Shown: positions 36,079 through 64,000 of the stretch, piece after piece
Position numbering within the stretch: position 1 is the stretch's first letter
How the letters are laid out: the number at the start of each line of letters is the position of its first letter
Assembly (NCBI GenBank): GCA_026874595.1
Contig: CM049307.1
Coordinates: 50,271,178-50,335,177, forward strand
Length of the DNA: 64,000 bases
From: Sipunculus nudus
Taxonomy: Eukaryota > Annelida > Sipuncula > Golfingiida > Sipunculidae
Direction: 5' to 3'
Notes under the pieces: generated by a model
The model's database searches: none
What the model was told of the DNA's origin: nothing
What the model saw: the letters and a program-made list of their open reading frames with translations, nothing else
Program-made: the position numbers and the translations under genes

Positions 36079-36595
36079 CTGCGGAGCAGAATATTAATAA
36101 GCATATATTGCATGATTTCCCGAAATGGTTCAAGCCTACGTTTTTTAGATACGAGGCTAACATACCCTAACCAAAAGTGTTTCAAAATAATGTCTTTGTA
36201 TTGCATACATAAAAACCGATGCATTGACACAACCTATAATTGTTACTTTTTGTACTCTTAAGTTGAAATAAAAGGTATAAAAGGATTTATAATTTATTAA
36301 TCTGAAAGATAACTCTCAATGTCGCCAGTAGATGGCAAGCTTTAACAGAATGCGCCCAGTATTTGCTGCCATCTAGCGGCTGGTAGTGATATTACATTTT
36401 TGCTCAAATTGGCGTGTCCTCAGTATATCTTAACTGACCAATACGATGACAAAAAAGTTATTTATTTACCTGCTCCAGGCGAAATTTATTTTTAAATCGT
36501 GCTACCATATTTGGGACCATTCTTCCAAAACTGCGGTTGCTTGTTGTAAACCTGTAAATTAAAGTGCAGTAAAATGAAAATACTGTGTCAGGACA

Positions 36596-36676
<81 letters not shown>

Positions 36677-42600: not shown

Positions 42601-42975
42601 TGCAAGAGAGTTGGTCAATGTAATCATCCCCCCTGCTATTCAGAGTATAACAATTACATATTGGAAATGAAATATATTAAGAATTAGAATTATAGACCTT
42701 GGTTCAATTTATGAGTTATTATGAAATCTGTTATATCTAAACGTGGTTTAGAGTTAACCTATACTAGAAACGTAATACGTTTTTCTACAACCTAATTCTT
42801 AATTGTAATATAATTGAAAAGTGTCATACAGACACAAAAAACGTGCATATCAGGGTTCGTAATAACGGCTTTCCGCCTGTCTCCAACAGGCAGACATGTC
42901 CCGGGAAAGGCATTTTGTACCAATCCGTTGGAAAAGTGAACACCTTTAGATGTTTTCATATTGGTGGTTGAAAAA

Positions 42976-43013
<38 letters not shown>

Positions 43014-46000
43014 AGACGACCATAGGTCGAACGCTTGCCGGAATTCGGAAGTGAAACACAGACGGACAGACAGAACATATTGTCGGTTTTCTATTAATGG
43101 AATGACTCTCAGGGACATTGCTGAGAATATGTGGCCCGTAGAATGACATATGAGACAAAAGAACAGGCAAGCAGACAAAGCTGACAACAAAAGACGAACA
43201 GACAGACATACTGACTTTGTGAGACAAGATTGACACCAGATGACATAAGCTAGTTATTGAGAAGATTCAAAGGAAGAAAATGAGTTATAATTTATGTAAT
43301 TTAGATTTATAGTTTACGAGGTATGGCGAATTAATGATATACTTGGGAGGCTCGACTGTAGCGCCCTCTAGCAGACATATTCCTAAGACGACAGATGCGT
43401 TTCGTATTATTAGTGTATGACATGAGATGTCTCAGTTTCAAAAGGATTCCGTCAAAGCTGTGGCATGTAGAATGCTATATGCAAGGCGTAAGAACCAGCA
43501 AGCAGGCGACTTTGAGGATAACGGACAAACAGATGGACACACTGACAAAGTGACAGAAGATTGAAACCATATGCCTTAATCAGGTTATGGAGAAGACTCA
43601 AAGGAAGAAAATAAGCTATAGCTTATGTAACTGAGGCTTTGGGTGTAGAGATATGGCCAATACAATGGTATGTGTGTGAGGGTCGTGTGCAGCGCCCACT
43701 AGTGGCCATATCAGGAAAATGAAAAATTTATTTTAGAAATTAGTGTAAGACATAAGATGTAATAGTTTCAAAAGGATTCCGTCAAAACTGTGGCCTATAG
43801 AATGCTATATGTGAGACGCAAGAACCAACAAGCAGGCGAATTTGAGGACAACTGACAAACAGACGAAAACACTGACAAAGTGATTCAAGATTGAGTCCAG
43901 ATGACTACTCCAGGTTATGGAGAAGACCCAAAGGAAGAAAAAAGCCACAGTTTATGTTACTGAGGTTTATAGTTTTGGAGATATTGCCAAAGCATGATAT
44001 GTTGGGAGAGGTTCGAGTTCAGCGCCCCCTAGCGGCCATATCCGGAAAATGAAAAATTGGTCTGGAGATATAAGTGTAAGACTTAAGATGTTATAGTTTC
44101 AAAAGGATTCTTTCAAAACTGTGGCCTGTAGAATGCTATATGTGAGACGCAAGAGCAAGCAGGCGAATTTGAGGACAACTGACAAACAGACAGACACACT
44201 GACAAAGTGTCACAAAAGTGTGACCAGATGACTACACTAGGTTATGGAGAAGACCCAGAGGAAGAAAATAAGCTATAGTTTATGTAATTGAGGCTTATAA
44301 TTTTGGAGATATGGCCAAAATATGATATGTTCGGGAGGTTCGCATCTAGCGCCCCCTAGCGGCCCTATTCAAAAAATGAAAAAAAAAAATTTCGAGATAC
44401 TAGTGTAGGACTTATAATATGTCAGTTTCAAAAAGATTCCTGCAATAATGTGGCCTTTGGCGCAAGATGAATGAAATCTCGAAATATCTCTATTCACGAG
44501 ATATTTTACGAGATACTGCAAGACTTTAATAAAATCTTGTAGTACTAGTTGAATGCTACTTGATGCAAAAAACTAGATCACTCTAGCTTTAAAACTGACA
44601 AAGTTAGAAAAATAAGACCCCTTATTTTCGAATATCATGACTTTTCCCCCAAAATTTGTAACCATGGTTACGGCAAATTTGAATCAGCTACACACCAGAT
44701 GACAGGCCTTGGAATGACGATTAAAATGAGCTATCGTTGAAGTAGATACGACTAATAGTCACAAAGATATGAAGAAAAAACCGTTTTGAGATGTTTTGAT
44801 GACGTTGACCTTGACCTTTGTCCTATTTTGACCAAAAACAATAGGGCACCTAGAAATTTAATTCTCCATCATCTCTGAAAGTCTCAAGGTGATTGCTGCA
44901 AAATTGTGGCCTGTACTGTACTAAATGTCAGACAGAACATCAAGGCCGTTGTCAAAATTGACAACAACAGAGGAACAGACAGACATACTGACAAGGGGAC
45001 ACAAAGTCAACAAAAGTTGATCATACCATGATATGGGGAAAGGAAAGACGAACAAAATGATCTTAGAATGAGGTTGATACGATCATTTTTGACTAAGTTA
45101 TGAGGAAAATAAAATTTCGAGGTTTTTTCGATGACCTTGACCTTAATCGTTGACCTATATTAACCAGAAACAATAGGGCACCTAGAAATATTGTTTCCCA
45201 TTATCCCTGTAAGTTTCAAGGTGATTGTGGCAAAATTGTGGCCAGGAGAGTGATGACAAACAAACAGACAAACAGACAAACAGACAAACAGACATACGCA
45301 ACTGACCAATATGCTTGCCGAAATCTTTGATTCCGGCAAGCAACAAACACAAAAACAATATAGTTTACTGATGGTGTTCCACCGACTCCCTATGTGTTCT
45401 ATAATTTCTTGTAAAATGGTCTTGGTTTCTTATACTTTCCGGCATTTAGGCCCTTATCTCCTGTATTTTCTGTGTTTTCCTGCACAGTTGTGTTTCTAAT
45501 ATAACAGTATTATTATTAAAAACATTCAGTTCTTTTTGCATGCAGGTGTGCAAGTAGGATGACATGTAAGATTGCAGAATCAGATTTACACTAAGCGAAG
45601 TGTGCGAGGTATTATGCTACCTTGAGTGCATTTTGCTCAGACAGACACGTCAGGGCCCAATAGATTAATAAGATTTAATAGGGGAAATCTCTCAAGTTAC
45701 CATGGACTAACGTCCTTGGTGGATGACGCACATTGGATGAGGAATATGTGGAGACAGCTCTTGTGCCTAATGATATCGTTTTTCTCACAGTGTTTTGTGA
45801 CAATAAAATTCCATTATATATACTGGATAAATTGTCATATTGACGAAGACTCATTGTCATTTTGTTCTACTTTAGATTTTATTTGAGCTAGTTGACAGGT
45901 TATACAACCCCAACAGCGTCCTTAGCTGCCATATTTCTTATGGCAAACTTTTGATAGCATTCTATGTATACTGTTTTCTAACTATAGATTCTATTGCAGC

Positions 46001-49000
46001 TAGTTGCAGGGTTATGTAAACAAACAGCGTCCTTGGCTGTCATAATTCTTGGCGGAAACTAGGATCACATTACGTTTATAATTTTGAAATATTTGTTTTA
46101 TATAGATTCTATTTGAGTTAGTTGTCGGGTTATTTAATAACACTAACGTCCTTGGCTGCCACATTTCTTAGGAAAGTATAATAAATCTGAAGTTTTACCT
46201 TCGCGTTAATGATCCAGGTTTTTTTGTTTGTCAAATTGTCTGTTTGCGATTCAAAGTGGTTATTCATGTTAATTTAGAATAGTACCATATACTATACATT
46301 TAACTAGAAATCTGTATTCTAAGGAATGCAAGCCTCCGCCATGTAGGGGTTCCTATTGTTTAGATGTTCCAAAACATCTTTGATGGTGTTGTTGAATCCC
46401 GATCCACACCAAAATCTAATCGGTTCTTTATTCACTCTTTCCCCAAATGCCCTGAAAATTTCATCAGATTCGGTTTGTGATTGCATTAGTTATGTTGTTA
46501 ACAAAAACACAATATGGATAAATCAATTTATATATACTGAGTTGAATAAAATGTAATTCAAAGTATTCTAGTTCTGTTTTTCAATGGGATGGCCTTGCAA
46601 ATTTACAAACATGGTCTTGTCAATGTTTGCATGTCGGTGGTTACTACGTTAATAAATGTTTTGTAAGGTAAAGAGACGGTACTGACGAAATTAAGTGTAA
46701 TGCATAAGATTGTATCAGGTAATGTGAACAACTGCATGTACTGTCTTGTACATTGTAATTGTATGTTGTGACGTATGTAATTGTATGTCTTCAATGTATG
46801 TAAATGTAAAGTTCCAAATATATTTGGTTAATAGCAAAATGTCGTGTCGTTAGATATTTTAAAATATATTTTATTAGATATTTTAAAATGTATTTTTTAT
46901 TAAACTGTTCCCTGAATATCCAGGTACAGTGCGTTATTAAATCCATCTTAAATTTTAGACGATTAACATCTCAAGGTGTCTTGTCTGTACGGTGAACATG
47001 TTTATAGTTTCAATAGATCAACAGAACACCTACCTTTTGAAAAAGAATTTAAGTGATTTCAGGCTTCCTCTGTGTAAATTTTAATGATCTAAGGATAATT
47101 GTGGTTGTGAAAATTTCTTATAAGACGTTCGTGGAGGATGTTTGAAAACAACACAGCATTGTAGACAAACGGAACAAAACATGTAACTTAAGGTTGCACT
47201 TAAGTTGCACATCTGCGGAGGTAGAAAGGTCACTTGTTGAAAAACACCATTTGCAAAGCTCTGGCTTATCTGACTTGCTGCCAGATGCCCTTGTTGAATT
47301 TGTTTTGATTATTTTGGCGGGCCCCAACATATAATAAACACGCTGATATAAAGAAAACAAGCAGCCTCTGTCCACAGTTCTGGCCCATATTTTATAAAAG
47401 CACAAAGGGATTACCTTTAGGTTATAAAGGTCAGATAGGTGATTGGGCCCCTTTAAATGACTCACTCATGTAAAAATCTTCATTTATGTTTAATCAAAGA
47501 GGAGCCTTGAATCAGTATTAGTAACTAGAATATAGGCACTCAGAGAGCGCACACCTCCACCAAGGCAGCTCATTACCCTCATACGGCATTGTCAGCAATG
47601 CAGCATTTTCCCTTCAAAAAGATTCCCGGTCCAGATGGTGATCCGAGCACCAACAATTTTAACAAATGTTACTTGCCGAGTTGTTTCATCATAGTACGTT
47701 CATATTTTTTCAGTAATGTTGCTAACAAACAGACAAACAGAACCAAGGACCCACGGGTCTCGACGCTTAGCTGAATGACTCTATATGGATATGTTTATAT
47801 GCTTTTTTTTCAAAATATGTGTCCTGTGATTAGTTTGAAGCTAACCTGTCAACTCAAACCGGATTCCACAATCTTTTTAAAAAGTGGGTCCTGCGACCTT
47901 GTCCTTTGACCTCATTACCCTAAAATCAAAAGGTATCTTTTTCTTCTTTTTTAGTGGATTTAACCGCCTCGGCTGAGATGCAAACTCACGATCTCCCGGC
48001 TTTGAGGCCTGTGCTCTACTCCTGAGCCACAGAAGCTGGTCTTTAACAAAAGGGTTTTTTTACATGGGTTCTTGGTGTGTGGTATGTTAGAGTCAAGATT
48101 GAAACCAATATGTCAATCCAAACTGGAGTAATCTTCCAGAAACAAATATGTGCACGGACGGAAAGGGTGATTATAATATAGGGCATCCCTCATTCAAGCG
48201 GGGCCCGAATAAACACGCAAGGTTTTAAGACACAGATGAAACCACAGTTTCTCATCTGGTAGTATCAATATAACTTGGCAGTGTCAAAATAAAGGAAAAC
48301 AATGCATAAAAAAATAAAACATATAGGTGGCGCGATTAGTCTTAAGTAACTGAAGAAATCAATCATGATCAATAAACACGCTGGGTTTCGGGACACTGGA
48401 TGAAACCAAAGCTGAGAAAATGACATAACTGCTGTCATTTGATGGCCTCCAAAACGAAAAATCGATAAAATTAGAAAAAAAATCCAGGTGGCGCCACTAG
48501 ATTTCGGGAACTGACAAAACTAGTCTTGTCAATATTCATGGCAAGATTCATGGCAATCCATTCCTTAATAATCAAGGTACACGAGTTTTTGTATCAAATA
48601 TTTACTTATTCTGGGGGGTGGGGGGGGGGGGGTGGAGTTACATACGAGCCCAAAATCTGAGGGGATATAGTTCACGGTGACCTAATTTCAGGGTATCCAA
48701 GGAAATGTGTTATTTACCTACCTGCATATTCAGTAACAAGTTTCTATAGGTTTAGCGGTTACGATACGATTTGTGCCTGCCAAGGGACGGAAGGACGGTC
48801 GGACAAACTGCCATTCCTATACCTCAGTTGACTTTCAGTCAGCTGAGCTAAAAACGCCAGCAACGCAAGCAAAATCATAACCCGCTTGGCGGAGGTATTA
48901 AGGGGTTGATGATGAAAGCATGTGCGTCAGTGAAGGAAACCCTATGTCAGGTTTTCCATTATTATCTCCCTCTCTTTCTGAGTATGTATGACGAGTATAG

Positions 49001-52000
49001 CACGGGGTCAAATTATTCACGTCTGAGTCTCCGAAATAAAGAGAACTTTAATTAAAAAGACAGACATCATCTTTAAAGCTTAGCATCGCTATGGGTTTAC
49101 TTTCAATAGAGAATCCCCCTAGCTCGCCAGAGGAAAACAAAATTAAATCTGTCATGCTGTGCCTCAACGTCCGTGAACACGGCTTATCGCAAGAAAAATA
49201 TTAGGAGGTTAAAAAGTGAAAGTCATCATGGACATATCTGCAGAGTGTGCAGTATAGACACCAACGGCTCAGATTTCGTTCACACTCGTAAATCAATTCA
49301 TCTTAAGAATTCCAAAACAGAGACAGCAAATTTTCATCAATGTTAAAGAAGCCTATTCAGATATCGGACGTCTGTTAACTAAAGAGGATCCCTTGAACCT
49401 TATAGACAGTAAAGACAGTAAACGCCGATCCCACAGTACACATATTGTTTGTTTTGTTTATACCCACGTGTTTATAACGTAGGGGGGGGGGCGCCAAAAT
49501 ATTTTAAACAGATTCAACAAGGACATCTGGAGGCAAGTCAGACGAACCAAATTAAGTTTTGCAACTAGTGAACGACGCTTCTGAAATCTTAACAGTTAAA
49601 AATAGTGTGTACGCTTGTCGACAACTATGTATTCATTGGAATCATCCCTGCAGAAAATGTCACATACCAGTATATACCTGGTCGGAAACGCTTGAATACG
49701 CTAGCTGTGTCAAGCTGAATCAGTTAAAAGACGCTAGGAGAGGGTCACGAAAATGAATTACGCTGTGCCATATAAGTACAACCCCCACCCCGTATTTCGA
49801 TGGAACCAATGTTACCAGTTATGCGTGGTGCACAGTTCATGGAAGGGCCACCCCGCGTTCATAGGGAAACAATGTAACCACCTGCACGCGGTGTAAAACA
49901 ATGGAACAGCCACATGAAGCACCGGGGTACCTGGTTTCGAGAGGACCGCGCGGACAGATCCCTGTGCACCACTACAATCTTTCGCTGTGATTTCCCGTAA
50001 ATACTTATTATGGTTTGTGATTGTGGAGATTGTGCGTGCCCCTTATCCCCATGGCATCTAAGGAAATTTCGTAAACACCACCCGTGTACCGGCGATGTTT
50101 TCAATTGTGTCCGTGTGTAGTGACCGGCGGGTTTAAATGAACCGGGCGCTTTTATTGTTTCGACGTGTTCTTGTTTTTCAGTTTTGTCTATTTTTTTAAT
50201 GAACTCCGGCCTTAAATAGAAGCCGGCCTTGTTTAGTCGCCGGGTCAAAGCAGGATCTGGAAAAAAAACCCGCCCGGACGTCTGATCAAGGAATTACGGT
50301 ATTTCAGCTTCCGTGCATATACAAGTTGTTACAACAAACCCTCTTAGTTTAACTGATTTTTTGTTGGTCAACACTGGCGCATGTACCAAGTTTACTATTA
50401 CCTTGCGTATAAACCACCTCATACATCGGTTAAAGTGGCGTTAAATGAACTTTTATCAAACAGGAATTACCAGCAGTTACATGCATTCTACAGACAGGGT
50501 AGGCGAATAGGTGACGTTAATAATATACGTAGAATTCGTCCATCTGTTTTAATTTCCGACCGCGCTATTGTTTCTTCATCAAGGCACATGTTATCAGTAA
50601 TGATGTAATAAGCCAGGTATACATTTAAGAGTGAAGTTCTGTTTATCCGAGGAGCCACATAAAGAGTCTCTGCTTCAGCAGCTTTATATTTTCTTCCACC
50701 AGCTACTTTAACCTTTAAACAGTCATTATTTCCAGCCAAATACCTGTTGATTAATTATTCATGAACGTTTTAATACTTGGAAATCGTGGGTAAGTTATTT
50801 CCAAGAATACGTGTACGTATAATAAATAGCTGTTTAATGGGAATGGTTGCAAGGTCTATATGGTCCGCCTTTGTTAACATGAAACTATTAAAATTAAAAT
50901 GTCATGGTCACGCTTCATAAATATAAATAATTGACTAGTGTCACTCCAATAATATGAAGGCGATTAATGCGTCAAGTAGTTTGTGCTTCAATTGTATACC
51001 TGTATAACTTTTTTTCTATGGATCTGACTTAAAGTAAAGACAAAAGATGATATCAATGATCGAGCTACCTGCTCTTGAAGATAAATCCACGAAATTATTA
51101 TTCAAATTTTCAAACTCGGAGAAGTTAGAATCAATCAATTAAACTTCTCATTGAATCCCCAAAGTATAGAAAATGTTCATCTCTTACTTTTCCAGGTGTG
51201 TTCCGTTATCATTGACGCCCAGTCTGTCCATGATGGGTGCCGACATGTCACGGAGATATTTCTGTGAAAATTAAAAAGTGCTCGAACTAATTAAGATTAT
51301 ACTGTTTTATGCATATTACTATAGATTCAGAAATTTGAGTAGGGGTTTTATTTTCATGGTTTTCATGGGCAAGGTAATCCACGAATTCATGATTCCAACC
51401 ATAAAAAAATCACGAGATCATGAGATCATCTTAATGACAGCAGGTGGTCGAGTTCATCTGTAGTTATTGCAATTGGCTGATGAGTTTTCAAAAATGGAAC
51501 ATACAACTCTTTTTCTCTAATTTTATGAATGCCATTGGTACAAATGATAAATGTGATGAATCACGTTTTCTGTAAATAACATAACTAATACTGAACATAA
51601 TTTATAAATACTCTGTTGCCCATTCCATTATTTTCCTATATAGTATCGAAAAAACATGGCCCCTGAAACGACGATTAATGATTACAATCAAACAGTATCA
51701 AAACTTAAACTTTAAACTGAAAACATTTCCATATACTTTCTTTCTTCAACGTATCGGATGAAACATTTAAAAACGCTATCACGTTTCTATACCGCAAAGC
51801 GGTAGTTTCGACATGTGCACCACCAGAACGGTACACCTGTCACAATGTTCATAAGCTTTTCTTTGGCTTAAAAGACAAGAGACAGGTTCTCTCATTTGCA
51901 TTTCCTCGGGAAGCGAATGTCAAAACACTTATTCTGATTACTGGCGACCACAGTGCTTACAAATATAAAACATGCGTATCTTCTTCCAAAAACTACCAAT

Positions 52001-55000
52001 AGTTGCATGTATAAATATGACAGAAAACTATTAAGTAGGCCTATGTAAATTATACCCGCTTATTTTGCGTGAATAAGTTCTTGTATTCATTGCGTAACTG
52101 TATAGATATTGATAACCCATGAATAGCTTACATTTACATTCTCATACCACGAATTCACACACCCCACGATCTGCGTTTTACACAAAACCACGAAATTTAA
52201 AGCCCACGGTATTATCCGAATCTTCAGTATACGTGTATTATGATAACAAACTGATGAACATGAAATTTGCTTCAAGGCGGATTACTTTTGTGTTAACGTC
52301 GATAAGAGATAATTAATAATAAAACTGAAACACACTCTAATTCTGAGATAAAATAAATTCTAATATATATATAAGAGATACTTACTCTACACTTCTCATA
52401 GTGACTTCTTCCAAACAAGTAGATCGAGACGCCACCGACGGCGCCAGCGGTTGCGCTCCAAGCGACGTAATGGGTCTCGTCTTTCAAGTAGCGTGTCAAG
52501 TTCAAGGCCGTTGGGAAGTCTAGCTGCTGGGCGCCAGCGAGAGCGAAGGCATCACGAACCAGGTGTGCACGGTCTGATACGCTGAATACCTGAAGCAGCA
52601 GATAAACATCGCGAATTAGTTAAAACCATGAAGACCCATGTTTATTCTTTAAGAAATCAATTATTGTTTTCTTTGTAGCATTTATTTTTTATTTTATTTT
52701 GTAATATAGTATGGGTGATTTCTTACAGTGCACTTCAATTCGCATGTGATTAACCGTAAATCAACTAAATAAATTGCTAGTTATTACTCTTTAAAACAAA
52801 ATGTTGATTCATATTTTTGTCTTAATAATATCAACTTGCTGTAATTACACTATATACAAGAGAAAAACAAGTGACTTATAATAAGGGGAAATCCCGGAAA
52901 TCCCGAAAGTAAAGAATCTCTATTTTGACAGCAAATGAGGGAAAGGGACACATTTCATAAAAACGATTATGGCTGTATATACCGGGGCGGATACAGGATC
53001 ATAGAACGGTGTGTATGGGGGGGGGGGGGGGGGGGGTGAGCGCTCAACATCCTTGTACAGACAAACAAGTGTCCATGCCAGAAGTCCTACTATACTACAC
53101 TTTATACATATTTCTCGCACGCAGAATACATGTGATGAAAATGGTATCAAATGCAAAATCCGCCGTCGTTTTCCGGTATTAATCGTATTTTATTTTTTTT
53201 TTTTTGTTGGAAAAAATTGGACACCCGCCCCCTGCGCCCCCCCCCCCCAATGCGACCATGATTTAACTACATGAACTTCGGATGCTGCTGCTGTTCCTAC
53301 TATAGCTGTTAGTACTACCACCACCACAACAACAGCTACTACTACTACTACTGCAACTCTAACTCCTCCTCCTACTACAACTACTAATACTCCTACTACT
53401 GTACCGTATAACGCCACATGAACTTAATTTCAATTTACCTTTAACATTTTAACATAAACATATTTTTCACATCTTTGATGTGAATTTTATATTTCTAGAA
53501 CAATTTTCTAAATTCTGGAACGACAGGTTGTGGGATGTACCGGTCTATGTGACGTAAGTATGTAAAGATGAATATGCATATAATGACTAAGAAATCATGG
53601 GAAGTATGACGTCATACTGTATGACTGTTAAGCAGCTGGTTAGCGAGGCTTGTCCACATGGGCTTGTCGTAGTTCACCCGGAAGTAGCAATGCTGGCGTC
53701 GGTTGAATTTGATCCAGCTTCCGGGGTTGTTAATGGTGAAATCCAAGCCTTAAAAGAAATAGTCAGTAATAAGCAAAAATTGTTATCTTTAAATTTGTTA
53801 TGATGTAAAATGGATATGTTTTAATAGTAACATTGCAAAAAATAAACCCCTTTTAGGTGGATTAATATTCCATAGCCTTCTGTGACTTGTGTCTAGTGAC
53901 GACAAGCCTGGCATTTTAGTTTTAAAGCCTGCTATTTGCCTAACTTTTCTATAGGATTTATGTGCTCTCTGGCTTACACTGCGTACATGTCAATGCACTA
54001 TAGGTAAGTCCTGTTAAGAAACGTTCTTATAACGCTTCAGTGAGGGCTTTTTATCTACAAGCTATAAATAAATAGCAATGTTAACAAACAGAAAAACCAT
54101 GTAACCCATGTCGGTGGTAACATATCAAATTGAAAGGTCATTAGTTACGAAAAGCCCTTTGAAAAATTTGGTTTGTCTGAGCTGCAACCAGATTTCCTTG
54201 TTCAATTAGTTTGAATTATTTTTGCGGGCCCCCACATTTTATAAACAGCCTTTGTGCACTAGGATCTGTGTTTTTGGGACTATGTTTTTCAAAGATCCAA
54301 GGGGTTATCTTTAAGTAATATACGTCTGTTATCGTAATAGGCCCTTTTAAAATTCCGAGCATCCTATGGCGACCTCTTTTTCTAAATTTGTGGAAGTTAC
54401 CCTGTCAGAATCATTCACTTACTATCAGTCCGGTTCATCCAGATAAGGCCTTCAGCGCCGTTCTCTGTTGTGTAAGTCAGTGGCACATACCATTTGTACC
54501 TTAAAAAAAGGCATTGCATATTAACTATAGCGCTATCACAAGGACAGAAATGTAAGAAATGTAGCCATTATATTGTATGCTGAAGAAACCCCTATATACA
54601 AACATGGAATTAATACACCAAGTGGGGAATATGGAAAATAAATGTAAAAAAATTTTGGTGAAAAATAATGTCTCCATGAAATATTTTTTAGTGAGTATTC
54701 CTATGACGTATTCATTTACAATTATAAGGGCCCCGCTTGAAAAGCGGTGCGTTATAGCGGTCGTCTTGTCCGTCCGTCCGTTCGTCACGGACACGTTCTT
54801 TCGCGCGAAATATCACAAAGACGATTTACTGGATCTTCCTCAAAGTTACAGGGATGATTGTTGCCAATGAGGGCTCCAGCCCTATCACATCACAGACTGA
54901 TCTGAATTTCAATATGGCCGCCAGAGCACAATCAACGATTTTATTCGGGCGCTATATCTCAAAGAGAATTTGCTTGATCTTTCTCAAATTCACAGGGATG

Positions 55001-55313: not shown

Positions 55314-58300
55314 CCCCCCCCCCATGATATATATCTAGTATGAATAAACTAGACGTACTGGTATGGTGAGTCAGGCTTAGACAAGTCGTCGTTAGGGTTG
55401 GCCATAAACCTCTTCTGTCTAGCCGTGACCTCAGCATTCACGCCGTTCATGGTGACGCTGACGTCAACCACAGGAAACCCCATCTGATACACCCACGGGT
55501 CCATCACGGTCTTAATGTTCAGTTTGTGTCCTACAACCTGTCAAAGTACATTTTTAAATAGATAATTAAATATTAATTGTGAGAGTGGAAATATTTCTAA
55601 AGAAACATCCTGTGGATGCATGCATAATTGATTGAAAAAGGAAGTAGACAATATAAAAACAAATGCTGTATCATTAATATTATGCTTTCTTGGTGTCAAA
55701 GTTTGTTTTGCATAGGGTTTGCCTGAAGTTAAAGATGTTTCATGCTTAAAATTCTTATTATAATACATGAGATTTCCATATTATGTATTTTTTGTTGGGT
55801 TGAACCGGATATTTTTCATCTCAGAAGTCCAATCCTTTAAAATGTGGAAATAACTCTTTTAACTAGAAAAAAAACATTAGTTATATCATATTTAGAATAT
55901 GATATATATAATTTGAATTTTATTTTTGTTTCTTAGAATAATGTTTATAAATTTATAAATTCAATCATGACATTACAATACATCAAGCCACCTATAATTG
56001 TTCGCTCAATGTTTCCACCAAATCCTGACTTTTCGAAATGTGTTTCGTGTATACTTATTGTTACAGATGTCTGTTTTATTGTGAGCTGTTGACATGTCTC
56101 TTTTATTGTGCGCTGTTGACATTCTGATTTGTGTTTGGCTCAAGCCCTGGGCGTTGCTATGCTACGGCGTTCCTTGTTCTAGATGGCCGGGTGCGGCCAA
56201 CGTGTAAACACAGCGGTCATGCTAGTCTTGGGCTTTCTCACCTGGCCGAGCCGGGCCTGCCCACGTGTAAACCCTAATATGTAGAAACACAACATTCGTT
56301 GTTCTAGATGTTTCCTGTAACGTGTGTATTATAAAGTTCTTTGGACTGTTCGGGAAATGGAAAGTTCTCGGCTTGGGGTGAAAAGTTATAAATATGAGGC
56401 TGTGTTTTAGACCCGAGACAGAGGAGAGAAAAATTCCAGCGGACACAGAAGAGTGCGTGTCAATTTGAAGACCTTTTCCGATAATTGCGGCAGTTATTCA
56501 CTTTTGAATTACAACGGATTGATTTTGTGAATGAACTGGACTGTTATTCTCTGAGAAGATTTATGTGAAATGTTCATCTTGATTGTACGTTATAAAGGAC
56601 TTGTTGTCGCTGTGGCAGTGGTGGTATCCTGGTACTGTACACTTTATTTATACACTTGTTACTGTTGTACTGTTGTTATACTGTATAATTGTATTGAAAT
56701 AATGTATTGTAAAGCTAGGGTTGTTTTAAGAATAAACTATAATAATTTGTTAACAAAACACTGACTTCTTTATTCATTCCCCTAGACATTTCACGCTGCC
56801 TAGTGTTGCAGGATCTGATTTTTTTTATCTCCATTACAGGGTTTGTGTTCGTCACGGCTACGTGATCTGTTGATATTGGGTTCCGTAACAATATGTATTA
56901 CATAACTTAATCTTATGTAAAAGGTCTAACTTGTGTACCCCCGCCGTGGGGTCACTCAACATACACACACAGAGATCCATAAACATTATAGTTTTCTTGA
57001 TCCTCAAGACATACAAGTACTGATGATACCGACACTAACCTCGTTGAAGTCCGCCCACATCTGCTGGGTCGTCGCCGTTGAGTATTCGCGTTTCCTTAGA
57101 TAATGCTGAAAGAAAGAACGGCCACAGACAGTTTATTAATCAGAAACAAATCTCGAGGACAGGGTTTATTTTAAAGAATATTTATAATATTTTTTATATG
57201 AATAGTATCACTGAATTATGAATGAAAAGATCACAAATCATATATAATTATTTCAGCGAGCTCATACTCAGACTCATATCCCTACTAATATGTGTGAGTT
57301 ATCGTTATAATTCATTAATTGTAGAAGTAGTTTTCAGTCCGTGACTAAAACAAAAATCTGCAAATTATCCATTTCAAATGCCTGTTGAAATATACCCTAT
57401 CCAAGGACTACAAAAGTTACAATGTTAGAGAAGCATTCAAGTAGTAGTAATGTACACGACGGAGTGACGGATATAAGATAGGCAGAAAAATCGTTCTGTT
57501 GTTCGTCGTGACGGTTTGTCTCATATACATAGGCTTTGGAGCTGGGGGTTGCGGGGGGGGATTGGCAAAAGGGGGTGCAGTCTTTGCAGTCTCTGCAGTT
57601 TGTTGACAGGTTAAAGGGAGGCTTTTCCTATGAAACTTTGTTTCTAAAATTGTCATATCAGGTGCAAAAATCCAGTGTCTCTTGTAATTTAGATCAGTAC
57701 AGTACTGTGCGATTCGTAGATGCAATGGATTGAAATATAATGTAGGTAAAATTGTAGGAAATACATACATCATGCTAAATATCTAATTTGGTCACTTTAA
57801 GACGAGTCTGCTTTGGAATATAACAATTTTAGAGTATAGGACAAAGTGTAATTATATCCTTTAATTCTGGCCAGTATTCCATAAACTGTTCATATTCATA
57901 TGGATTTGATACTTACATCTTAAATTTCATATAGGCCTAAGTGTGAAAATGGTATATCCATTGTCTCTCAGTATATTTGTTTCATGCTTCATATGACATG
58001 CAGTTTTTAGCACTGAATTTTAGATTAAAAATTCGAATCTGCTTCATTTTCTTCTGCATCCAAGGCATATTATTATGCTAATATACCGTCCATGAATTAA
58101 AGCGGGATTTCTCGATTTCACATATTAAACACTGAATGGTCACTGGATGATATTTAGTTGAGTTAACGCCATAATTGACAACTACCACAATTCTAAACAT
58201 ATTCGTTTGCTTTCGTGTCTGGGTAAATCAAATCAATGTGAAATTGTAATGTCTTGCGATTACAAACTTAATTTACTCGTGTATATGTTCTCGTCTTCAC

Positions 58301-59028
58301 GGCGCATATGGAGATATTAAGAAACCACGAATTAAGAATAGACAGTATTAAGAAATTGGGGTATTTAATTGAAAAATAACTAAAACCAGAGGTTCACATA
58401 GCAATGAAACGTTCCCAGTGCTTTAAATACTGCTTGCTGGTGATTATGTTTGCAGGGTTTTTTTCATTACATTGGTTTCTGTACTATCATCTGCTCTTCA
58501 TTTTCATAGTAAGAACCGATCTTACCCGAACGCATTCCCGGAAGTCATCGGGACCAAGGAAAGCTCGCATCATCAAAAGGATGGATGACCCCTGAAACAA
58601 AATACCATATATTGTTATTTGAAAAGTATATCCTGACGTCAGAACAGCTTTAGGTAATATTCAGACTCTATTTACCATTCTCTGTGATCAGTACAACACC
58701 AAAACAATGCATGTGCAACTAGATGTATGCAATCGCCAAGCGAACACTAGAAGCCCTATAAATCCCCCCCCCCCCAACAACACTTTTTAGCAAGTGGATG
58801 GGATGGTAAATGTAATCAGCCCCCTGTTATTCAGAGAAAAATATTGGTATATAGGAAATGAAAGATATTAATAATTAGAATTACAGGACTTTGGTTCCAT
58901 TTCTATGTTTACTATGAAATTTTAGATATTTTTACCTGGTTTAGAATTAACATATACCTGAAACATTCAGCCTTATTCTTTTTTTAAACCTTACACTTAA
59001 TTGTAATATATTTGGAATGTGTTACACA

Positions 59029-59070
<42 letters not shown>

Positions 59071-62000
59071 TAGTTGATAACTTTCCCACTCCGAGGCATC
59101 CCTAAAACCATTGGAGACTCAAAAAAAAAACCTTTTTTATATAAACCATTTTTATCCTCCTATAGCCTTCTTACCTTACTGTAGGTTATACCATCAAAAA
59201 CAGAATTGATAGAATCCGGATGGTTCACTTCTATTACAAGGGGACGTGATGTGTTGAGGGCATCCGTTCCCATGATGCTGTTCACTGTTCCACCGGGATA
59301 TTCCAACTGAAGGGTTAACAGGATTTCCATTATACCAGGAAGCAAAAACACACAATCAAACATTCGTTTTATTCTTCAGCTCCAGCAACCACACAACCCT
59401 AAGCGTTCTGTTTTACAACAAATTTCCTTGTTTTTAGCTAACCATGTGATAACGTAATACATATTATGATTAAAAACGCATTCATATACATTGTGGTTTT
59501 GATACTATTATATGACTATTATATAAACATGTTGTACAACAATGACAGAATAAGACATATATACAGAAGTTTTCAAATGACAAGAGCAGAACGTGTAGCA
59601 GAAAGACCAATATACTTATAATTTGTTTCCGTCACCACACAGAAATAATAAAATTAGAATAATCGCTTCCCGAGAGAGAGAGTTCCATTGATAAAAACGG
59701 ATAAGTAGCAGTAGTTTGTCCTACAATATATAGATGGCGCCACCACTGCTACCTTTAACAAGCACATTTGCTAAGTTTCAGGAACAAACATCTTTCAGAA
59801 TATATAAAAATGTAACAATGAAAAAAAATCAAAATTTATGCAATCACATTGTATCGTAAAATATTCATTATGCAAACAGTCAATTTATATTTCGTATTTC
59901 ATCTGCAATCATCAGGCATAGTGATATTGTTGATAATTTTGTTTTCCTCATCACAAGGATCCGAGGTAATGTATTTTCCGCGTCGGTTGGTTACTTGGGT
60001 GGTTTGTATGTTAGCAGCCCAAACCCAAATGATCTTATTTTGATACATTATATTGATCCAGATTAGTGTTGATTGATTGTTTATTTGGTGTTAACTTAGC
60101 CCTCAACGAAATTTCGTTAAAACCGTTTATAACTTTTTGCATAATGTTTTTGAAGGACAAACCAGCTAACGTGACCAACGGACAAAGATACTACCTCGCC
60201 ACCAGACGCAAATATAACAATGATTATCTTTTATCAGTATACGTGTAGTCTATTAGTAGATGGAACAGGTTACATAGAATCACCCACAGAAACCGACGAA
60301 ATGAAGACCATGTGTTAGCTGTAGAAGAGAAGAAGGCTGTAGGTAAGCAGGAGATGACGTCATCAGGCGGTGGCGTCTGGTATATAGGCTCTTGTATAAT
60401 CGGCGTAATCCAGCAGTTAGTTACGTTACAGGGTCAAAAGGGGGTAATATGAGGGTAAATGTTACTTGTAACGTTGGAAGTTCACGTAAATATTGTTGTA
60501 AAGTCCGAAGAGGGATAACATGCAGGGAAAAGATTATGGGAGAAATAACTTTAGCTCGTAATAAATTATGAGAAATGTTTATGGAAACGGGGGTGCGTGC
60601 TGGCTCAATAACATCCTCAGTAATTTTTGTTCTGCCTCCTTTTTGTTACATTATACAGCAGAATAAAAGTTCTTTGATATAAATCTAAAAAGATGATAAA
60701 TGTATAGATAAAGCTAGGAAGGAAAAGACATATTCACCGGAGGGTAAAATATTTTAAAGCAGATATGTTATTACATATCTTGCATGATAAAATAAAGTCA
60801 GTCATTGCAATTAATTTTGAAACATCAATTGATTATTTAATTCAAGGAAATATATTTTTCAACTTCCAAAAAGATCTCATGAGTATATGAATTTTTCCTG
60901 TCCGGAAAATCATACTCTACAAAGTATTTACTTGGCACATTTATATAGTTTTCTGAAATTATAATTGTTGATGATAAAAGGTTCAGGGGTAAAGCAGTAT
61001 TGAGACAAATAAGACTCAAAATATCAAGGAGAATAAGATGTTAATTTTTTTGCATTAAAATGATGAGTTAATGATCGTCGTTGCTGGCCATGGAGTTGGA
61101 GGAGGGTTGGGGGGGGGGGGGGGGGGGGGAGGTTAATGAGAAGGGAATCTATCTATGGCAGTTAGCAGGGTACGAGACCAGGGTAAGGGGTCAAGGTCAC
61201 CACTTACCATATCCCACGTGGGTTCTGAGTAGTTCACGGAAAATCTCGAATATAAACTCGCGTATCCTTCATTAAGCCAGATGTCGTCCCACCAGTGACA
61301 CGTCACAATATTGCCAAAGTACTAGACAGAGAGAACCAGAGACAGAAGATAGACAGACAGCAGTGACAAGAGACAGAGCAACAGTGCTTGTGTGCTACCA
61401 TGACACCTAGCGGCAGTCAGAGAGACCAAACCTGCAAATATGTCGGGATCACTGTAAGCGTCGTCAAAATTTTATCTGATTTTTGTATATAGGTTAATAT
61501 TGACTTTCCAACAAACACCCTGTGAATAATAAGGTGACAGTATTGGTTGGAAGTGTAATATGCACACCTTCATATAGTTCAAGGTAACTATAGTCCGTTT
61601 CATCCCCTTATGTCCACCTGTTTTTTTGCTATGAAAATATTTAATAGTTACATTTCAAAGGAAAAAAATTGTAGTGTAGAGTAGAGGATTAAAGGACCTA
61701 ATTTTCAACAAGGTAAATAAATACCTACCTTACACCTTATTTAAGGAACAGAATTATTTGAAAATATGAGAAATAAGTCTACATTTTACATGTCAGACCC
61801 ACTTATGGCGGTCAAGGTCATTGGTCACATGCAAAAACAGCCTCAACTGACAGCTTCTGATTGGATGATGTCATGTAAATACTCTAAAAAATATAACCAG
61901 CTAAAACAAAAATGGCTACTTATTGAGAGACATAACGTATCTGCCAGATCACAGTGAAGTGACTAAAATGTTGTGAAACATAAATTGGCGATTTATTGTA

Positions 62001-62944
62001 AAATTCTTAATTGCCATATTAGGTTGTCACTTCCATATGTTGTTTTCTTGGAAATTATTGAAAAATATAAACTTTTAAGTAAACCATCTACAAAAAAACA
62101 TGTGGATGGCAGTTGGTGAAATGGACTATAGTTTTGATTAATTTCCGTTATGACATTTCATCAATTGATCATTTGAGACTAAAATTAATATTTGTGATAA
62201 ATTTTCATGTTGCATATGATTATATTTTATATATCAAGTCGTTATGATACACCAAATAATCTACGATCACTTCCCATGAGCTTCTAAATCTTGATGACGC
62301 TTCCACTGATATTCCTTTCCATACAAAGAGCTTCTACTGTACACAGGTGCTTAAATCCCTATAGTTGTATCTGACTCTACCGGGTAATGATAATGATCAG
62401 TTCGGTTATTGATTTGATGCAAATGGGGTAAAATATTGGACCGTATCCTTGGCAAGCATGATGATTTTATATTAAGACACGCGGCCAACCATATCTGCGC
62501 AGCGGAACGCAGTGGCATAAGGTTCCGTGTATGATCAGCCATAACATGAGACGTCCTCGATTTTCGGTAAAGCTAAACCTTCGCTTGCTGAACAAGAATA
62601 TAATTTCTTGTATTATCGTCCAACGCAGATGTCGCCTTTCCAGGCTTTTCTATTTATTACATATTGATTTTGTTATTATTAATTATTATTAATTTTCCCC
62701 TTTTGCCTCTATTTGTAACAAAACTCATTTATTTTCACTGTACTTAATTAAGTCAGATCCGTTTATTGGGAATAAAAAGCACCTATGGACAGTATTGATA
62801 TAATTTATATAAAATAGAACAAATTTATACCATGTCCCAGTCGGGTTCAGATACATTAACCGACAACTCCTCATAAAAGCTGGCGTAGCCCTCGTTCAGC
62901 CATATATCGTCCCACCATTCACATGTTACCAGGTTCCCAAAAAA
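35932..62944 (-). CDS. M1 aminopeptidase N-like zinc metallopeptidase, C-terminal 564 residues (5' part outside window)
   Basis: Spliced CDS on the minus strand: 62831-62944 or 61208-61321, then 59175-59306, 58526-58591, 57040-57105, 55359-55537, 54423-54499, 53618-53748, 52386-52589, 51188-51261, 40540-40641, 38641-38820, 37834-37974, 36470-36551 and 35932-36078. With one of the two first exons it totals 1695 nt: 564 codons plus TAG. M1 enzymes remove N-terminal residues from peptides; aminopeptidase N types are usually type II membrane ectoenzymes. Visible landmarks in order: the FGN(L/I)VT segment that normally follows HEXXH, the WWDDIWLNEG zinc-ligand motif, the TYSKGSS catalytic-tyrosine motif, the MGFPVVDV start of the beta domain, the FRVNYD motif, and the C-terminal helical domain ending NDWLDANVR. 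HEXXH, GAMEN and the membrane anchor are not in the window and should lie to the right. Family assignment is secure. The exact paralogue (APN, glutamyl- or ERAP-like) cannot be decided without the N-terminal half. Confidence 0.95.
36470..36551 (-). CDS. M1 peptidase exon 13
   Basis: 82 nt: it completes Arg (AG|G), then FTTSNRSFGRMVPNMVARFK and NKFRLEQ. The acceptor is tttacag and the donor CAG|GTAAAT; it ends phase 0. It corresponds to the F.....L..LI..VT..F.T...L..V segment. NRS is a potential N-glycosylation site. Confidence 0.94.
36599..36672. repeat. (TA)n microsatellite in aminopeptidase intron
   Basis: The longest pure TA run in the window, in the intron between exons 12 and 13, about 50 nt from the exon 13 acceptor. 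Confidence 0.97.
37834..37974 (-). CDS. M1 peptidase exon 12
   Basis: 141 nt: it completes Arg (AG|A), then YLDRATDTRYVREQDFFTVV to HYDQLLA and AG of the next Arg. The acceptor is ttcacag and the donor AG|GTAAAT. The sequence VREQDFFTVVSYVSATDVG followed by AWDWVREHYD is a textbook match to the IR.QD....I..V...P.G...AW.F...NW segment of M1 domain IV. Confidence 0.96.
38641..38820 (-). CDS. M1 peptidase exon 11
   Basis: 180 nt: it completes Thr (AC|C), then ENAVSPNLRALVYRIGMEAT to TAWLLQ and AG of an Arg codon. The acceptor is ttctag and the donor AG|GTACGT. It contains WDIMWERYLAESSALQR, equivalent to W.F.W.....A....E. At the two positions where vertebrate APN has the second domain-IV cysteine pair, this protein appears to have Arg (VYR) and Ser (LAS), so that disulfide seems absent. 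Confidence 0.95.
40540..40641 (-). CDS. M1 peptidase exon 10: conserved disulfide segment
   Basis: 102 nt. It completes Lys (AA|A), then LLRSTVISVACGNGNSACLQ, NVTELFIKWLEDD and AC of a Thr codon. The acceptor is cttcag and the donor AC|GTAAGT. The two cysteines in ACGNGNSAC match the first conserved domain-IV disulfide of aminopeptidase N. NVT is a glycosylation sequon. Confidence 0.95.
40902..41971 (+). repeat. 1.07-kb dispersed element, copy 1 (Helitron-like 3' end)
   Basis: Shares long collinear similarity with 47786-48852 in the same orientation. Shared blocks include gtgggtcctgtgacc, tcaatccaaactggagt, tcaatataa.ttggcagt and ggcgccac. The similarity ends at the same point in both copies: a near-perfect hairpin (tcagttgac ttt cagtcagctga) followed by gctaaaa. 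A hairpin followed closely by CTRR is the mark of a Helitron 3' end. The 5' TC end and any Rep/helicase coding are not seen, so the class is only suggested. Confidence 0.6.
42600..42840 (+). repeat. Dispersed repeat family B, copy 1
   Basis: Similar over about 240 bp to 58790-59030, same orientation. Shared motifs: tcagcccc/tcatcccccctgctattcag, tggaaatgaaatatatta, aattagaattata, ttcttaattgtaatat. Both follow a poly-C run. Class unknown. Confidence 0.7.
43040..45300 (-). repeat. 330-bp tandem array in the large intron
   Basis: Units anchored by gtagaatgctatatg-like motifs near 43131, 43462, 43792 and 44120, with a fifth broken at 44451: a period near 330 bp. Each holds tcaaaaggattc, agcaggcgaatttgagg, cagacacactgacaaagtg and agcgccccctagcggccata. 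Two more distant units (about 44800-45290) share caatagggcacctagaaat and aaattgtggcc. On the minus strand it matches the 18.4-19.7 kb array. Confidence 0.88.
45870..46175. repeat. Three tandem units of about 115 bp
   Basis: Units near 45873, 45984 and 46104 share tagattctattt, gagctagttg, gggttat and acagcgtccttggctgccat. They sit directly after the 330-bp array. Copies are diverged and non-coding. Confidence 0.75.
47080..47465. repeat. Dispersed repeat family C, copy 1
   Basis: Similar along about 350 bp to 54010-54365. Shared motifs: aacatgtaac, tgaaaggtca, tttgcgggcccc, gcaccaaggg-type and ataggccc/gggcccctttaa. The 115-codon minus-strand ORF here is not conserved in copy 2, so it is probably chance. 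Confidence 0.7.
47786..48852 (+). repeat. 1.07-kb dispersed element, copy 2, interrupted by a SINE
   Basis: Second copy of the 40902-41971 element, about 6.9 kb away in the same intron and orientation. It ends with the same hairpin plus gctaaaa and then diverges. A SINE head (about 47934-48046) interrupts it where copy 1 is continuous, so the element is older than the SINE. It carries a G-rich interruption near 48612. Confidence 0.6.
47934..48046 (-). mobile_element. tRNA-derived SINE, head-only copy
   Basis: On the minus strand it carries a tRNA-like head (tggctcaggagtagagca ... gagatcgtgagtttgcatct ... agccgaggcgg) closely matching the head of the SINE at 20935, ending in an A-rich tail (T-rich on the plus strand). 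It is flanked by caaaagg at 47927-47933 and 48047-48053, a likely 7-bp target duplication. The B box has one change (gtttgcatc for gttcgaatc). It interrupts the 1.07-kb element. Confidence 0.7.
49345..49600. repeat. Dispersed repeat family D, copy 2
   Basis: Counterpart of 27893-28190. It lies within the large intron and is interrupted by a run of about 10 G (49482). Confidence 0.65.
51188..51261 (-). CDS. M1 peptidase exon 9
   Basis: 74 nt, KYLRDMSAPIMDRLGVNDNG followed by THLE and two bases (AA) of a Lys codon. The acceptor is ttcacag and the donor GTAAGA. It fits the YLR.....Y..LG helix of domain IV. It is separated from the next exon by the largest intron in the window, about 9.9 kb and rich in repeats (51187 down to 40642). 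Confidence 0.93.
52386..52589 (-). CDS. M1 peptidase exon 8: start of C-terminal helical domain
   Basis: 68 codons from VFSVSDRAHLVRDAFALAGA to HYEKCR, phase 0-0, acceptor cttcag and donor AGA|GTAAGT. The motif DRAHLVRDAFALA matches the R.Q...DAF.LA helix that opens domain IV in M1 enzymes. Later residues (TRYLKDETHYVAW) fit the Y...E..Y.PW pattern. NLT is a potential N-glycosylation site. Confidence 0.95.
53280..53402. repeat. Imperfect trinucleotide (CTA/CCA/CAA)n region
   Basis: Mixed tac, acc and aac triplets. Open frames through it (poly-V on the minus strand) are artefacts. Confidence 0.85.
53618..53748 (-). CDS. M1 peptidase exon 7: FRVNYD motif
   Basis: 131 nt. It completes a Ser codon, then runs LDFTINNPGSWIKFN to LLNSHT; donor ACA|GTATGA, acceptor tttaag. 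It contains YFRVNYD, the counterpart of the family GYYRVNYD. The Gly that normally precedes this motif is replaced by Cys (RQHCYFRVNYD). It ends phase 0. Confidence 0.94.
54010..54365. repeat. Dispersed repeat family C, copy 2
   Basis: Counterpart of 47080-47465, in the intron between exons 6 and 7. It ends just before exon 6. Confidence 0.7.
54423..54499 (-). CDS. M1 peptidase exon 6
   Basis: 77 nt: it completes the split Gln codon, encodes YKWYVPLTYTTENGAEGLIW and MNRTD, and ends one base into the next codon (A|GC). The acceptor is tttaag and the strong donor is GTAAGTG. It matches the W.VPLT-type strand of beta domain III. NRTD contains an N-glycosylation sequon (NRT), consistent with an extracellular domain. 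Confidence 0.93.
54715..55165 (+). repeat. GGGCCCCGC-bounded dispersed repeat with internal duplication
   Basis: Begins ggccccgcttgaaaagcggt, with a gtccgtccgtccgttcgtc stretch. It then has two similar units: gatttactggatcttcctca and aatttgcttgatctttctca, each followed by cagggatgattg(g/t)t and aatatggccgcc/aacatggccgcc. It ends near cgcggggccctaatt. Probably an unclassified transposon-like repeat lying in the exon 5-6 intron. Confidence 0.55.
55257..55323. repeat. (CT)n(C)n tract
   Basis: CT run followed by about 14 C, in the intron 3' to exon 5 (36 nt from its donor). Confidence 0.97.
55359..55537 (-). CDS. M1 peptidase exon 5: end of catalytic domain and start of beta domain
   Basis: 179 nt starting VVGHKLNIKTVMDPW and ending DSPYQ, where the last codon is split (CA|G). 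The acceptor is tgacag and the donor CA|GTACGT. It contains the hallmark YQMGFPVVDV, equivalent to the W..QMGFPV motif that joins the thermolysin-like domain to the beta-sandwich domain III. A (CT)n-(C)n tract lies just inside the downstream intron. Confidence 0.95.
56059..56890 (+). mobile_element. Candidate solo LTR in aminopeptidase intron
   Basis: An 832-bp block starts TGTTAC and ends GTAACA, the short inverted ends typical of LTRs. Inside, in the right order on the plus strand, are a TATA box (TATAAATA, 56387-56394), a transcribed-like region and a polyadenylation signal (AATAAA, 56731-56736). The first 60 bp contain a short internal duplication (tgttttattgtg / tcttttattgtg). No gag-pol coding follows, so if real it is a solo LTR. 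A clear 4-6 bp target duplication is not visible (cttat against atatg), which lowers confidence. It lies in the intron between exons 4 and 5. Confidence 0.5.
57040..57105 (-). CDS. M1 peptidase exon 4
   Basis: 22 codons, HYLRKREYSTATTQQMWADF followed by NE; phase 0-0, acceptor ctttcag and donor GAG|GTTAGT. It corresponds to the M1 segment in which a YL.K..Y.NA...DLW-type helix closes the catalytic domain. The intron to the next exon contains a candidate solo LTR. Confidence 0.93.
58526..58591 (-). CDS. M1 peptidase exon 3
   Basis: 22 codons from GSSILLMM to FRECVR, phase 0-0, acceptor tttcag and donor CGG|GTAAGA. It continues the YSKGxS.LxM helix of the catalytic domain. The family usually has IRM here and this protein has LLM. 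The short exon matches the small-exon organisation common in invertebrate M1 genes. Confidence 0.93.
58790..59030 (+). repeat. Dispersed repeat family B, copy 2
   Basis: Counterpart of 42600-42840 located in the intron between exons 2 and 3. Similarity begins just after a poly-C tract (58766-58776) and ends before a (TA)n tract. Confidence 0.7.
59033..59067. repeat. (TA)n microsatellite in aminopeptidase intron
   Basis: TA run following dispersed repeat B, copy 2. Confidence 0.96.
59175..59306 (-). CDS. M1 peptidase exon 2: linker and catalytic tyrosine
   Basis: 44 codons starting LEYPGG after acceptor cttcag and ending ITYSK before donor AAG|GTAAGA; phase 0 at both ends. The conserved run IMGTDALNTSRPL matches the M1 segment in which a DAL.SSHP-type motif leads toward the active site. 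The Tyr of ITYSK corresponds to the tyrosine that stabilises the transition state in M1 enzymes. It follows exon 1a or 1b directly, and both end on a complete Met codon. Confidence 0.95.
59307..62830 (-). other. Introns around the duplicated zinc-ligand exon
   Basis: The spacer between the two exon copies (61322-62830) and the intron after exon 1b (59307-61207) are AT-rich and contain no further copy of the WLNEG exon and no other M1 segment. A polypurine-type stretch next to exon 1b (61324-61385, GA/GACA-rich) gives that exon a strong polypyrimidine tract on the minus strand. A run of 21 G lies at 61109-61129, about 80 nt past its donor. An unrecognised ORF at 60066-60248 looks fortuitous. 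Confidence 0.6.
61208..61321 (-). CDS. M1 peptidase exon 1b: third zinc ligand, downstream alternative copy
   Basis: Encodes 38 residues beginning YFGNIVTCHWW and ending SEPTWDM. It is the same length and phase (0-0) as the exon at 62831-62944. The acceptor is gtctag after a pyrimidine-rich stretch and the donor ATG|GTAAGTGG is strong. The 13-residue core WWDDIWLNEGYAS is identical in both copies, including the zinc-ligand Glu. Differences cluster at exon positions 1, 5, 9, 23, 25-27, 31 and 35, and 17 of the 29 shared residues use different codons. No stop or frameshift is present. Inclusion of either copy, both or neither keeps the frame, but skipping both would remove a metal ligand. Confidence 0.93.
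62831..62944 (-). CDS. M1 peptidase exon 1a: third zinc ligand, upstream alternative copy
   Basis: Encodes 38 residues beginning FFGNLVTCEWW and ending SEPDWDM, with WLNEG (residues 16-19 of the exon) carrying the glutamate that is the third zinc ligand in M1 enzymes. The acceptor is ttcag before TTTTTTGGG and the donor ATG|GTATAA is weak. Both ends are phase 0. In M1 proteins this segment directly follows HELAHQW; here the usual Trp is Phe. A second version of the same exon lies 1.5 kb downstream, with the same length and phase, so this is half of a duplicated pair. It is the most upstream exon of the gene in the window. Confidence 0.93.
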
Positions 62945-64000
62945 CTGAAACATACTCAATGTTAAACATATCCATATGTGAAAAAATACGTACGATGGGC
63001 CCTCGGGGCATAATTTAGCGGTTCGGTTACCCAGAGACCGTATCCGAGAATGGGCTCATGTGGAGAAAGTCGGCGGGGGTGGATGACAATTGCACGTCTG
63101 ATAATAGGACTTTTTTTATTCAAATACATATGCGGCCGCGTATATAAATAAATATGTGGCCTCAGTGTGACCTCAATAAGAATACGGGGCTGTTATTTAT
63201 TAGACATACAGTATTAATACAATATATACAAATAAAAACTGACAGCGTGCATAATAACCCTATTGTTTTATATATCTTGAAACTGTGACAGTGACAACTG
63301 TAAGATGAACCAACCGCAGATCAAGTGCACAAACGGATAACATCCCCCCCCCCCCCCCACCCGCCCAGGTGGAAAACTGAGAGCCTTTGCGGTTGTAATT
63401 TATAATAACTTATAAAAATATCTTCATGTAAGTAATTAAAGCGAATTCTATACATTTCCATATTCACAAAATGTTACATCCTCCAATAACCGCTTGTTTG
63501 TTGAAGAAATATATTTCAGCTATGTAATTATGAAAACCATGATTGCTCCTTATATAATATTCCTATCAAGAGTATCAATTTTTAACCAATAAAACTCCGC
63601 AAACGATGCAACTAGTTACAGTCAGCACATCCAAGCATCCAATGTTTACATTCACATGTTTAAGGGTAATGGTAACTAAATGCATGGGGGGGGGGGGGGG
63701 GGGGCTGAGCGATAATCGGGGATAGACAAATGGACTGTACGGCCTTGCAAATAAGGTAAAAGGGTAATAACAAATATCAGTTACAAACACGTGATCTAGG
63801 ACTAATATATTGTGCCGACATTTCAGCTTTTGAAAATCAGCCATATTGGAGATCTGACACATACAGATAATAGCTCAAGAAAAAAAAAATAAATCGATGA
63901 TTTTCCATCTGGGGTAATTTTTAATCAAATATGCATTTATAAATAAACTAATGAACCCCTAAATAGGCCTACTAGTCCTAATTCGATTGTAATGTGCTCG
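62945..64000 (-). other. Intron at right edge
   Basis: Upstream intron of the aminopeptidase gene. No HEXXH-bearing exon and no third WLNEG exon is visible. It contains a run of 15 C (63344-63358) and a run of 19 G (63686-63704). The exon encoding HELAHQ should end phase 0 somewhere beyond position 64000. Confidence 0.6.

Follow-up and report, generated by a model that had tools for sequence, protein, structure and literature searches.

A tandem pair of zinc-ligand exons, probably used as alternatives, in an M1 aminopeptidase gene of Sipunculus nudus

Tandem homologous exons are known as a class, and pairs that lie beside or across enzyme ligand sites have been described in KHK, CAMK2D and ACOX1 (PMC9741552); in the human exon pairs of that report, 80.6% of predicted ligand residues are kept in both copies. 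A survey of predicted homologous exon candidates in human verified 1,399 of 6,541 as exclusive, with 1,741 more undecided (PMC5740500), and because such predicted pairs are often not exclusive we treat exclusivity with caution here. In U2AF1, where exons Ab and 3 form such a pair, the exon with the better splicing signals is reported to be the repressed one (PMC5224494). Among the literature matches listed, which leave the subscription literature mostly uncovered, there is no case of alternative homologous exons in an M1 peptidase and no example of a zinc peptidase that switches the exon holding its metal motif. This agrees with a first-pass annotation of the present DNA, which knew of no described M1 case; the nearest match is the Helicoverpa armigera APN genes, for which exon skipping and circular RNAs are reported (PMC6722899).

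We analysed a stretch of 64,000 nucleotides of Sipunculus nudus DNA (the window) that contains two versions of one M1 exon, here called U and D (1a and 1b of the first-pass annotation), with a pyrimidine-rich tract before the second:

62831-62944, minus strand: exon copy U, upstream in the transcript, FFGNLVTCEWWDDIWLNEGYASFYEELSVNVSEPDWDM, 114 nt, phase 0-0
61322-62830, minus strand: intron between U and D, 1,509 nt
61322-61386, minus strand: pyrimidine-rich tract before D, a candidate control element
61208-61321, minus strand: exon copy D, downstream, YFGNIVTCHWWDDIWLNEGYASLYSRFSVNYSEPTWDM, 114 nt, phase 0-0

Coordinates, strand, length, phase and GT-AG borders of both exons were reproduced exactly from the first-pass annotation. 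Both copies are read in the same frame and encode the part of an M1 peptidase that supplies its third zinc ligand, the LNEG Glu; this Glu of the WLNEG motif is present in each. A recount returned the earlier values of 29 identical residues out of 38 (76%), different codons at 17 of those 29, and residue changes at positions 1, 5, 9, 23, 25, 26, 27, 31 and 35. All nine changes fall outside the core WWDDIWLNEGYAS, which is unchanged between the copies, and they would lie beside the active-site cleft. Local alignment of exon with exon scored 62, whereas the best of 100 dinucleotide-shuffled pairs reached 23, and chance similarity is thereby ruled out. The best PDB match of copy U is glutamyl aminopeptidase (4kx7, E 1.5e-11) and that of copy D is aminopeptidase N (9uep, E 5e-10); D matched 60 PDB M1 chain sequences at E <= 0.001, and both copies align to glutamyl aminopeptidase, ERAP1 and aminopeptidase N chains. 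Following the criteria for homologous exons in PMC5740500, U and D are adjacent, internal, similar in length and sequence, in the same frame, bordered by GT-AG and free of in-frame stops.

In several respects the pair resembles those of the human enzymes KHK, PKM, ACOX1 and PFKP (PMC9741552), which likewise are homologous exons of one gene with ligand residues mostly kept and differences that surround active-site or ligand residues. It differs from them in that the gene encodes a zinc peptidase, that the exon itself holds a metal ligand, and that exclusive use is a prediction here; U and D are also more alike, at 76% identity, than the 53.1% given for human pairs that include ligand residues (PMC9741552). 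The Helicoverpa armigera APN genes share with this gene membership of the invertebrate M1 peptidases and alternative splicing, yet what is reported for them is skipping and circular RNAs, not alternative homologous exons (PMC6722899).

Among M1 proteins, 4kx7, 9uep, ERAP1 (7z28) and P0001 contain the same segment with the zinc-ligand Glu of WLNEG, and we know of no second version of the zinc-ligand exon in any of their genes. P0001, from the annelid Paralvinella palmiformis, is the only named animal M1 protein among those returned, and M1 and ERAP1_C domains are recorded for it. At position 1 the M1 comparators have Trp, where U and D have Phe or Tyr. For a broader view we used 75 distinct M1 segments, mostly bacterial or unnamed, taken from 131 proteins (11 plus the best 120 of 127), all of which carry the motif. 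U and D share 29 residues with each other, more than either shares with its nearest neighbour among the 75 listed segments (25 for U, 22 for D), and they have in common several residues rare in the set, namely Phe or Tyr at 1, Cys at 8, Tyr at 20 and Tyr at 24; P0002 of the set also has Phe1 and Cys8. This closeness, together with the shared rare residues, fits what would be expected of a duplication within this lineage.

The two copies stand at different distances from the family. Counted over the nine positions that vary, the four animal comparators, P0001 and three PDB chains, agree with U 16 times and with D twice; the ERAP1 segment in this count covers 35 of the 38 residues, and three of the comparators had been retrieved in U-seeded searches, which may favour U. 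Protein searches with one exon at a time found homologues at E <= 0.001 in 11 of 16 candidates for U, and for D a single candidate and no homologue at that threshold. Position 25 is Glu in U and in all four animal comparators, and Ser in D. Glu occurs at this position in 29 of the 75 M1 segments and is thus common in the family without being essential; the position is seven residues past the zinc-ligand Glu18, and would therefore be on the same helix face.

Downstream of the pair, ten further exons were located on the same strand and in order, from 59.3 to 36.0 kb, by tblastn with 11 M1 proteins and, for exon 3b, by inspection:

59175-59306, minus strand: exon 2, 132 nt, phase 0-0, LEYPGG...FDGITYSK, containing the Tyr of the YSK motif
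58526-58591, minus strand: exon 3, 66 nt, GSSILLMMRAFLGPDDFRECVR
57040-57105, minus strand: exon 3b, 66 nt, HYLRKREYSTATTQQMWADFNE, GT-AG bordered, selected by eye among the reading frames
55359-55537, minus strand: exon 4, 179 nt, M1 domain end or linker
35932-53747, minus strand: exons 5-10, ERAP1-like C-terminal domain, at about 53.7, 52.5, 40.6, 38.7, 37.9 and 36.0 kb, several exact borders unsettled

We take the Tyr of the YSK motif in exon 2 to be the catalytic Tyr. None of the located exons is broken; some short exons, between exons 4 and 5 and between exons 6 and 7, escaped the search, and the gene half as described may be incomplete. Pfam Peptidase_M1 (PF01433) scored 76.7 bits over two stretches, the best of them copy U, with exon 2 at 15.8 bits, below the cut-off; ERAP1_C (PF11838) comes later on the minus strand, with 39.6 and 92.1 bits, and the two domains thus follow each other in the expected order. 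The coding part of the M1 gene ends (NDWLDANVR and the stop) within a 50-bp minisatellite (35594-35971; TRF, tblastx) that runs into the 3' region.

Only 1,056 nt of the window lie upstream of copy U, and the 5' half of the gene is beyond position 64000. An exon with HELAHQ, which the first-pass annotation had used as the upstream junction partner, is accordingly outside the window: HE[LIMFY][AGSC]H had no match in the six frames of the whole window, G[AG]ME[NH] (GAMEN) had none in any of its frames, and the stretch from U to the window end, compared with the HExxH/GAMEN part of 129 M1 segments, reached 19.2 bits, no better than shuffles (17.7-24.3). Because that exon lies outside the window, the upstream partner is only assumed in what follows.

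Within the window, the duplication is confined to the one exon. When twelve exon stretches were compared by tblastx, the only strong mutual match was that of U with D (86.8 bits), the sole pair to involve a whole copy. Exons 2-9 had no non-self match above 23.1 bits in the window, and exon 10 had matches of 31-33 bits in the minisatellite 3' of it. A second whole copy of exons 2-10 is absent from the window, including the U-D intron, which rules out duplication on the scale of the gene within the window. That no other exon lies between the copies, as had been claimed, is borne out by this search, by tblastn with the 11 M1 proteins, which found no separate M1 exon there, and by a test of the U-D intron for a GAMEN/HExxH relic using 129 pre-zinc-helix M1 segments (20.4 bits; 15 shuffles gave 17.3-24.6). 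Some tblastn matches to D extend, with weak similarity, past a stop codon to about 61495. The whole window, compared with itself by tblastx (E <= 1e-4), yielded 268 binned non-self pairs, among which U-D is seventh by bits. The six stronger pairs belong to clusters at 20.7-21.6 and 43.2-44.1 kb and are probably repeats; mutually similar translated stretches cluster more widely at 18600-21900 and 42900-45300, where they are probably interspersed repeats.

The copies are old, and both have been held by selection. Their differences fall 6, 5 and 25 at first, second and third codon positions, and 9 of 10 fourfold sites differ. The dN/dS comparison proposed in the first-pass annotation was made between U and D as a pair, and came out in part: NG86 dN is 0.19, and dS is beyond computation, as expected at saturation. 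Neutral drift was simulated from U in sets of 4000 runs: at 0.2 substitutions per site, 3.5% of the runs ended with the frame open and 29 or more residues identical, and at 0.5, 1.0 and 1.5 none of the 4000 did. The simulation and the codon-position pattern together indicate, therefore, that both copies have encoded protein under constraint during most of the time since they separated; the low replacement beside saturated silent change is what purifying selection on both, as first proposed, predicts. The flanking introns tell the same of age. Upstream of U and D, 92 of 100 shuffles reached the score of the real comparison over 400 nt and 80 of 100 over 1000 nt; downstream the figures were 28 of 100 over 400 nt and 36 of 100 over 1400 nt. 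An allelic or recent duplicate is ruled out, since intron similarity does not exceed that of shuffles and the silent sites are saturated. As far as the window shows, U and D are an old single-exon duplication. Constraint by itself would leave open whether the copies have always belonged to one gene and whether both are in use now, and it could partly date from a period when they sat in two genes.

What we observe, then, is two intact, frame-compatible, spliceable copies, both long constrained, that open a gene half in which nothing else is duplicated. We consider mutually exclusive use of U or D the best explanation, and a likely one. The HExxH exon beyond the window would be joined to either U or D and then to exon 2; both copies would be expressed, one to a transcript, and the products would be two full-length, active-type enzymes with nine residue differences around an unchanged metal-binding core. 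These nine changes may tune substrate handling or activity.

A further step is possible, though we propose it tentatively: that the metal-site helix of a metazoan M1 aminopeptidase is switched by splicing, and that the D enzyme has altered specificity or activity and is chosen according to tissue. The features of D behind such an alteration would be the Ser in place of Glu seven residues (two helical turns) past the zinc-ligand Glu, and the changed preceding loop. An exon pair that carries a metal ligand of a peptidase would serve as a test, provided by nature, of how specificity depends on the residues surrounding an unaltered zinc site, and would show how peptide-processing enzymes can be diversified with no need for a second gene.

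How the choice might be made is suggested by the splice sites. The donor of copy D (ATG/gtaagt) scores 6.7 and its acceptor is strong, against -1.4 for the donor of copy U (ATG/gtataa), whose acceptor is weak with a poor pyrimidine tract; the earlier statement that 1b has the stronger donor thus holds. Beside the -1.4 of U, the seven others scored out of ten gave 0.3 to 7.2 (exons 5, 6 and 8 were left out); the donor score matrix, like the list of pyrimidine words used for the acceptors, was compiled for this analysis. The tract before the D acceptor is free of AG from the AG at -67 to the acceptor AG at -2, and UCUU/CUCU/UUCU/UGUCU-type words occur 18 times in the 60 nt before D, compared with 0-6 times before 11 other acceptors, a few of whose positions are uncertain by 1-2 bases. 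Comparable AG-free tracts (58 nt, at least 74% C+T) precede 6 of 3,212 minus-strand AGs, D and exon 7 among them, and 6 of 3,252 on the plus strand; the remaining four on the minus strand look like simple repeats, and the D tract may itself be repeat-derived. The arrangement is like that of U2AF1 exons Ab and 3, in which one copy has better signals and a long pyrimidine tract and the other is less favourable (PMC5224494), although the gene is different and the clade probably so. By analogy with that pair, a trans-acting factor on the long tract before D could set the choice: with D repressed, the weak-site copy U would be used. Neither of two other routes to exclusivity is available at this locus, as the U-D intron (1,509 nt) is not too short to splice and joint inclusion of two exons of 114 nt, a multiple of 3, in phase 0-0 causes no frameshift.

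The same asymmetry is one ground for supposing that one copy alone is in normal use, the other being an old exon now silent or rare whose frame is still open because its loss was recent. Splice-site strength would make U the likelier silent copy, given its weak donor and acceptor; protein sequence would make it D, which is further from the M1 enzymes by the comparator count (16 to 2, with its U-seeded bias) and by the one-exon search. Both frames are open, however, with silent change saturated and replacement low, so that any loss must be recent, and D still matches its 60 PDB M1 sequences at E <= 0.001. We regard this as an unlikely account of the pair.

Still less probable, in our judgement, is an origin of the copies in two tandem M1 genes, either joined by a deletion or retaining two promoters and two N-terminal halves that share the C-terminal exons. 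M1 genes can cluster, as in the ten APN genes reported for one Helicoverpa cluster (PMC6722899), and the sequence above 64000 is outside the window. Against this, the searches showed no further M1 exon either in the U-D intron or in the 1,056 nt that precede U, and a second whole copy of exons 2-10 is missing from the window. A hidden second N-terminal half, named in the first-pass annotation as a finding that would assign the copies to different genes, is thereby weakened for the stretch between U and D and for the C-terminal half; above U the window covers 1,056 nt.

A cassette-like mixture in place of strict exclusivity is as improbable: any combination of two 114-nt exons in phase 0-0 preserves the frame, and moth APN genes are reported to yield isoforms by exon skipping (PMC6722899), but joint inclusion would add 38 residues that repeat the metal-site helix, double skipping would remove the third zinc ligand, so that the product might be a regulator or receptor form lacking catalysis, and the long constraint on both copies favours single-copy enzymes as the main product.

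Mutually exclusive splicing of U and D could also be served by intronic base-pairing, for which we compared the 1,056 nt above U (I0, the part of the upstream intron within the window), the U-D intron (I1) and the intron between D and exon 2 (I2). In a first scan three intron pairs beat 6 shuffles, the poly-G/poly-C one by a wide margin and the other two by about 2 kcal/mol. Once G/C runs were masked, no docking or selector pairing stood clearly beyond shuffles in this one genome: shuffles equalled or exceeded the real value in 7, 10 and 1 of 14 for I0-I1, I0-I2 and I1-I2, one tie being counted. The strongest intronic pairing is of poly-G with poly-C spanning both exons, at -64.9 kcal/mol. Homopolymer runs of G or C of at least 9 number 20 across the window (8 G, 12 C), including those at 61109-61129, 63344-63358 and 63686-63704; one such pair of runs, flanking both copies, could base-pair and loop out both, and runs of this kind are common here.
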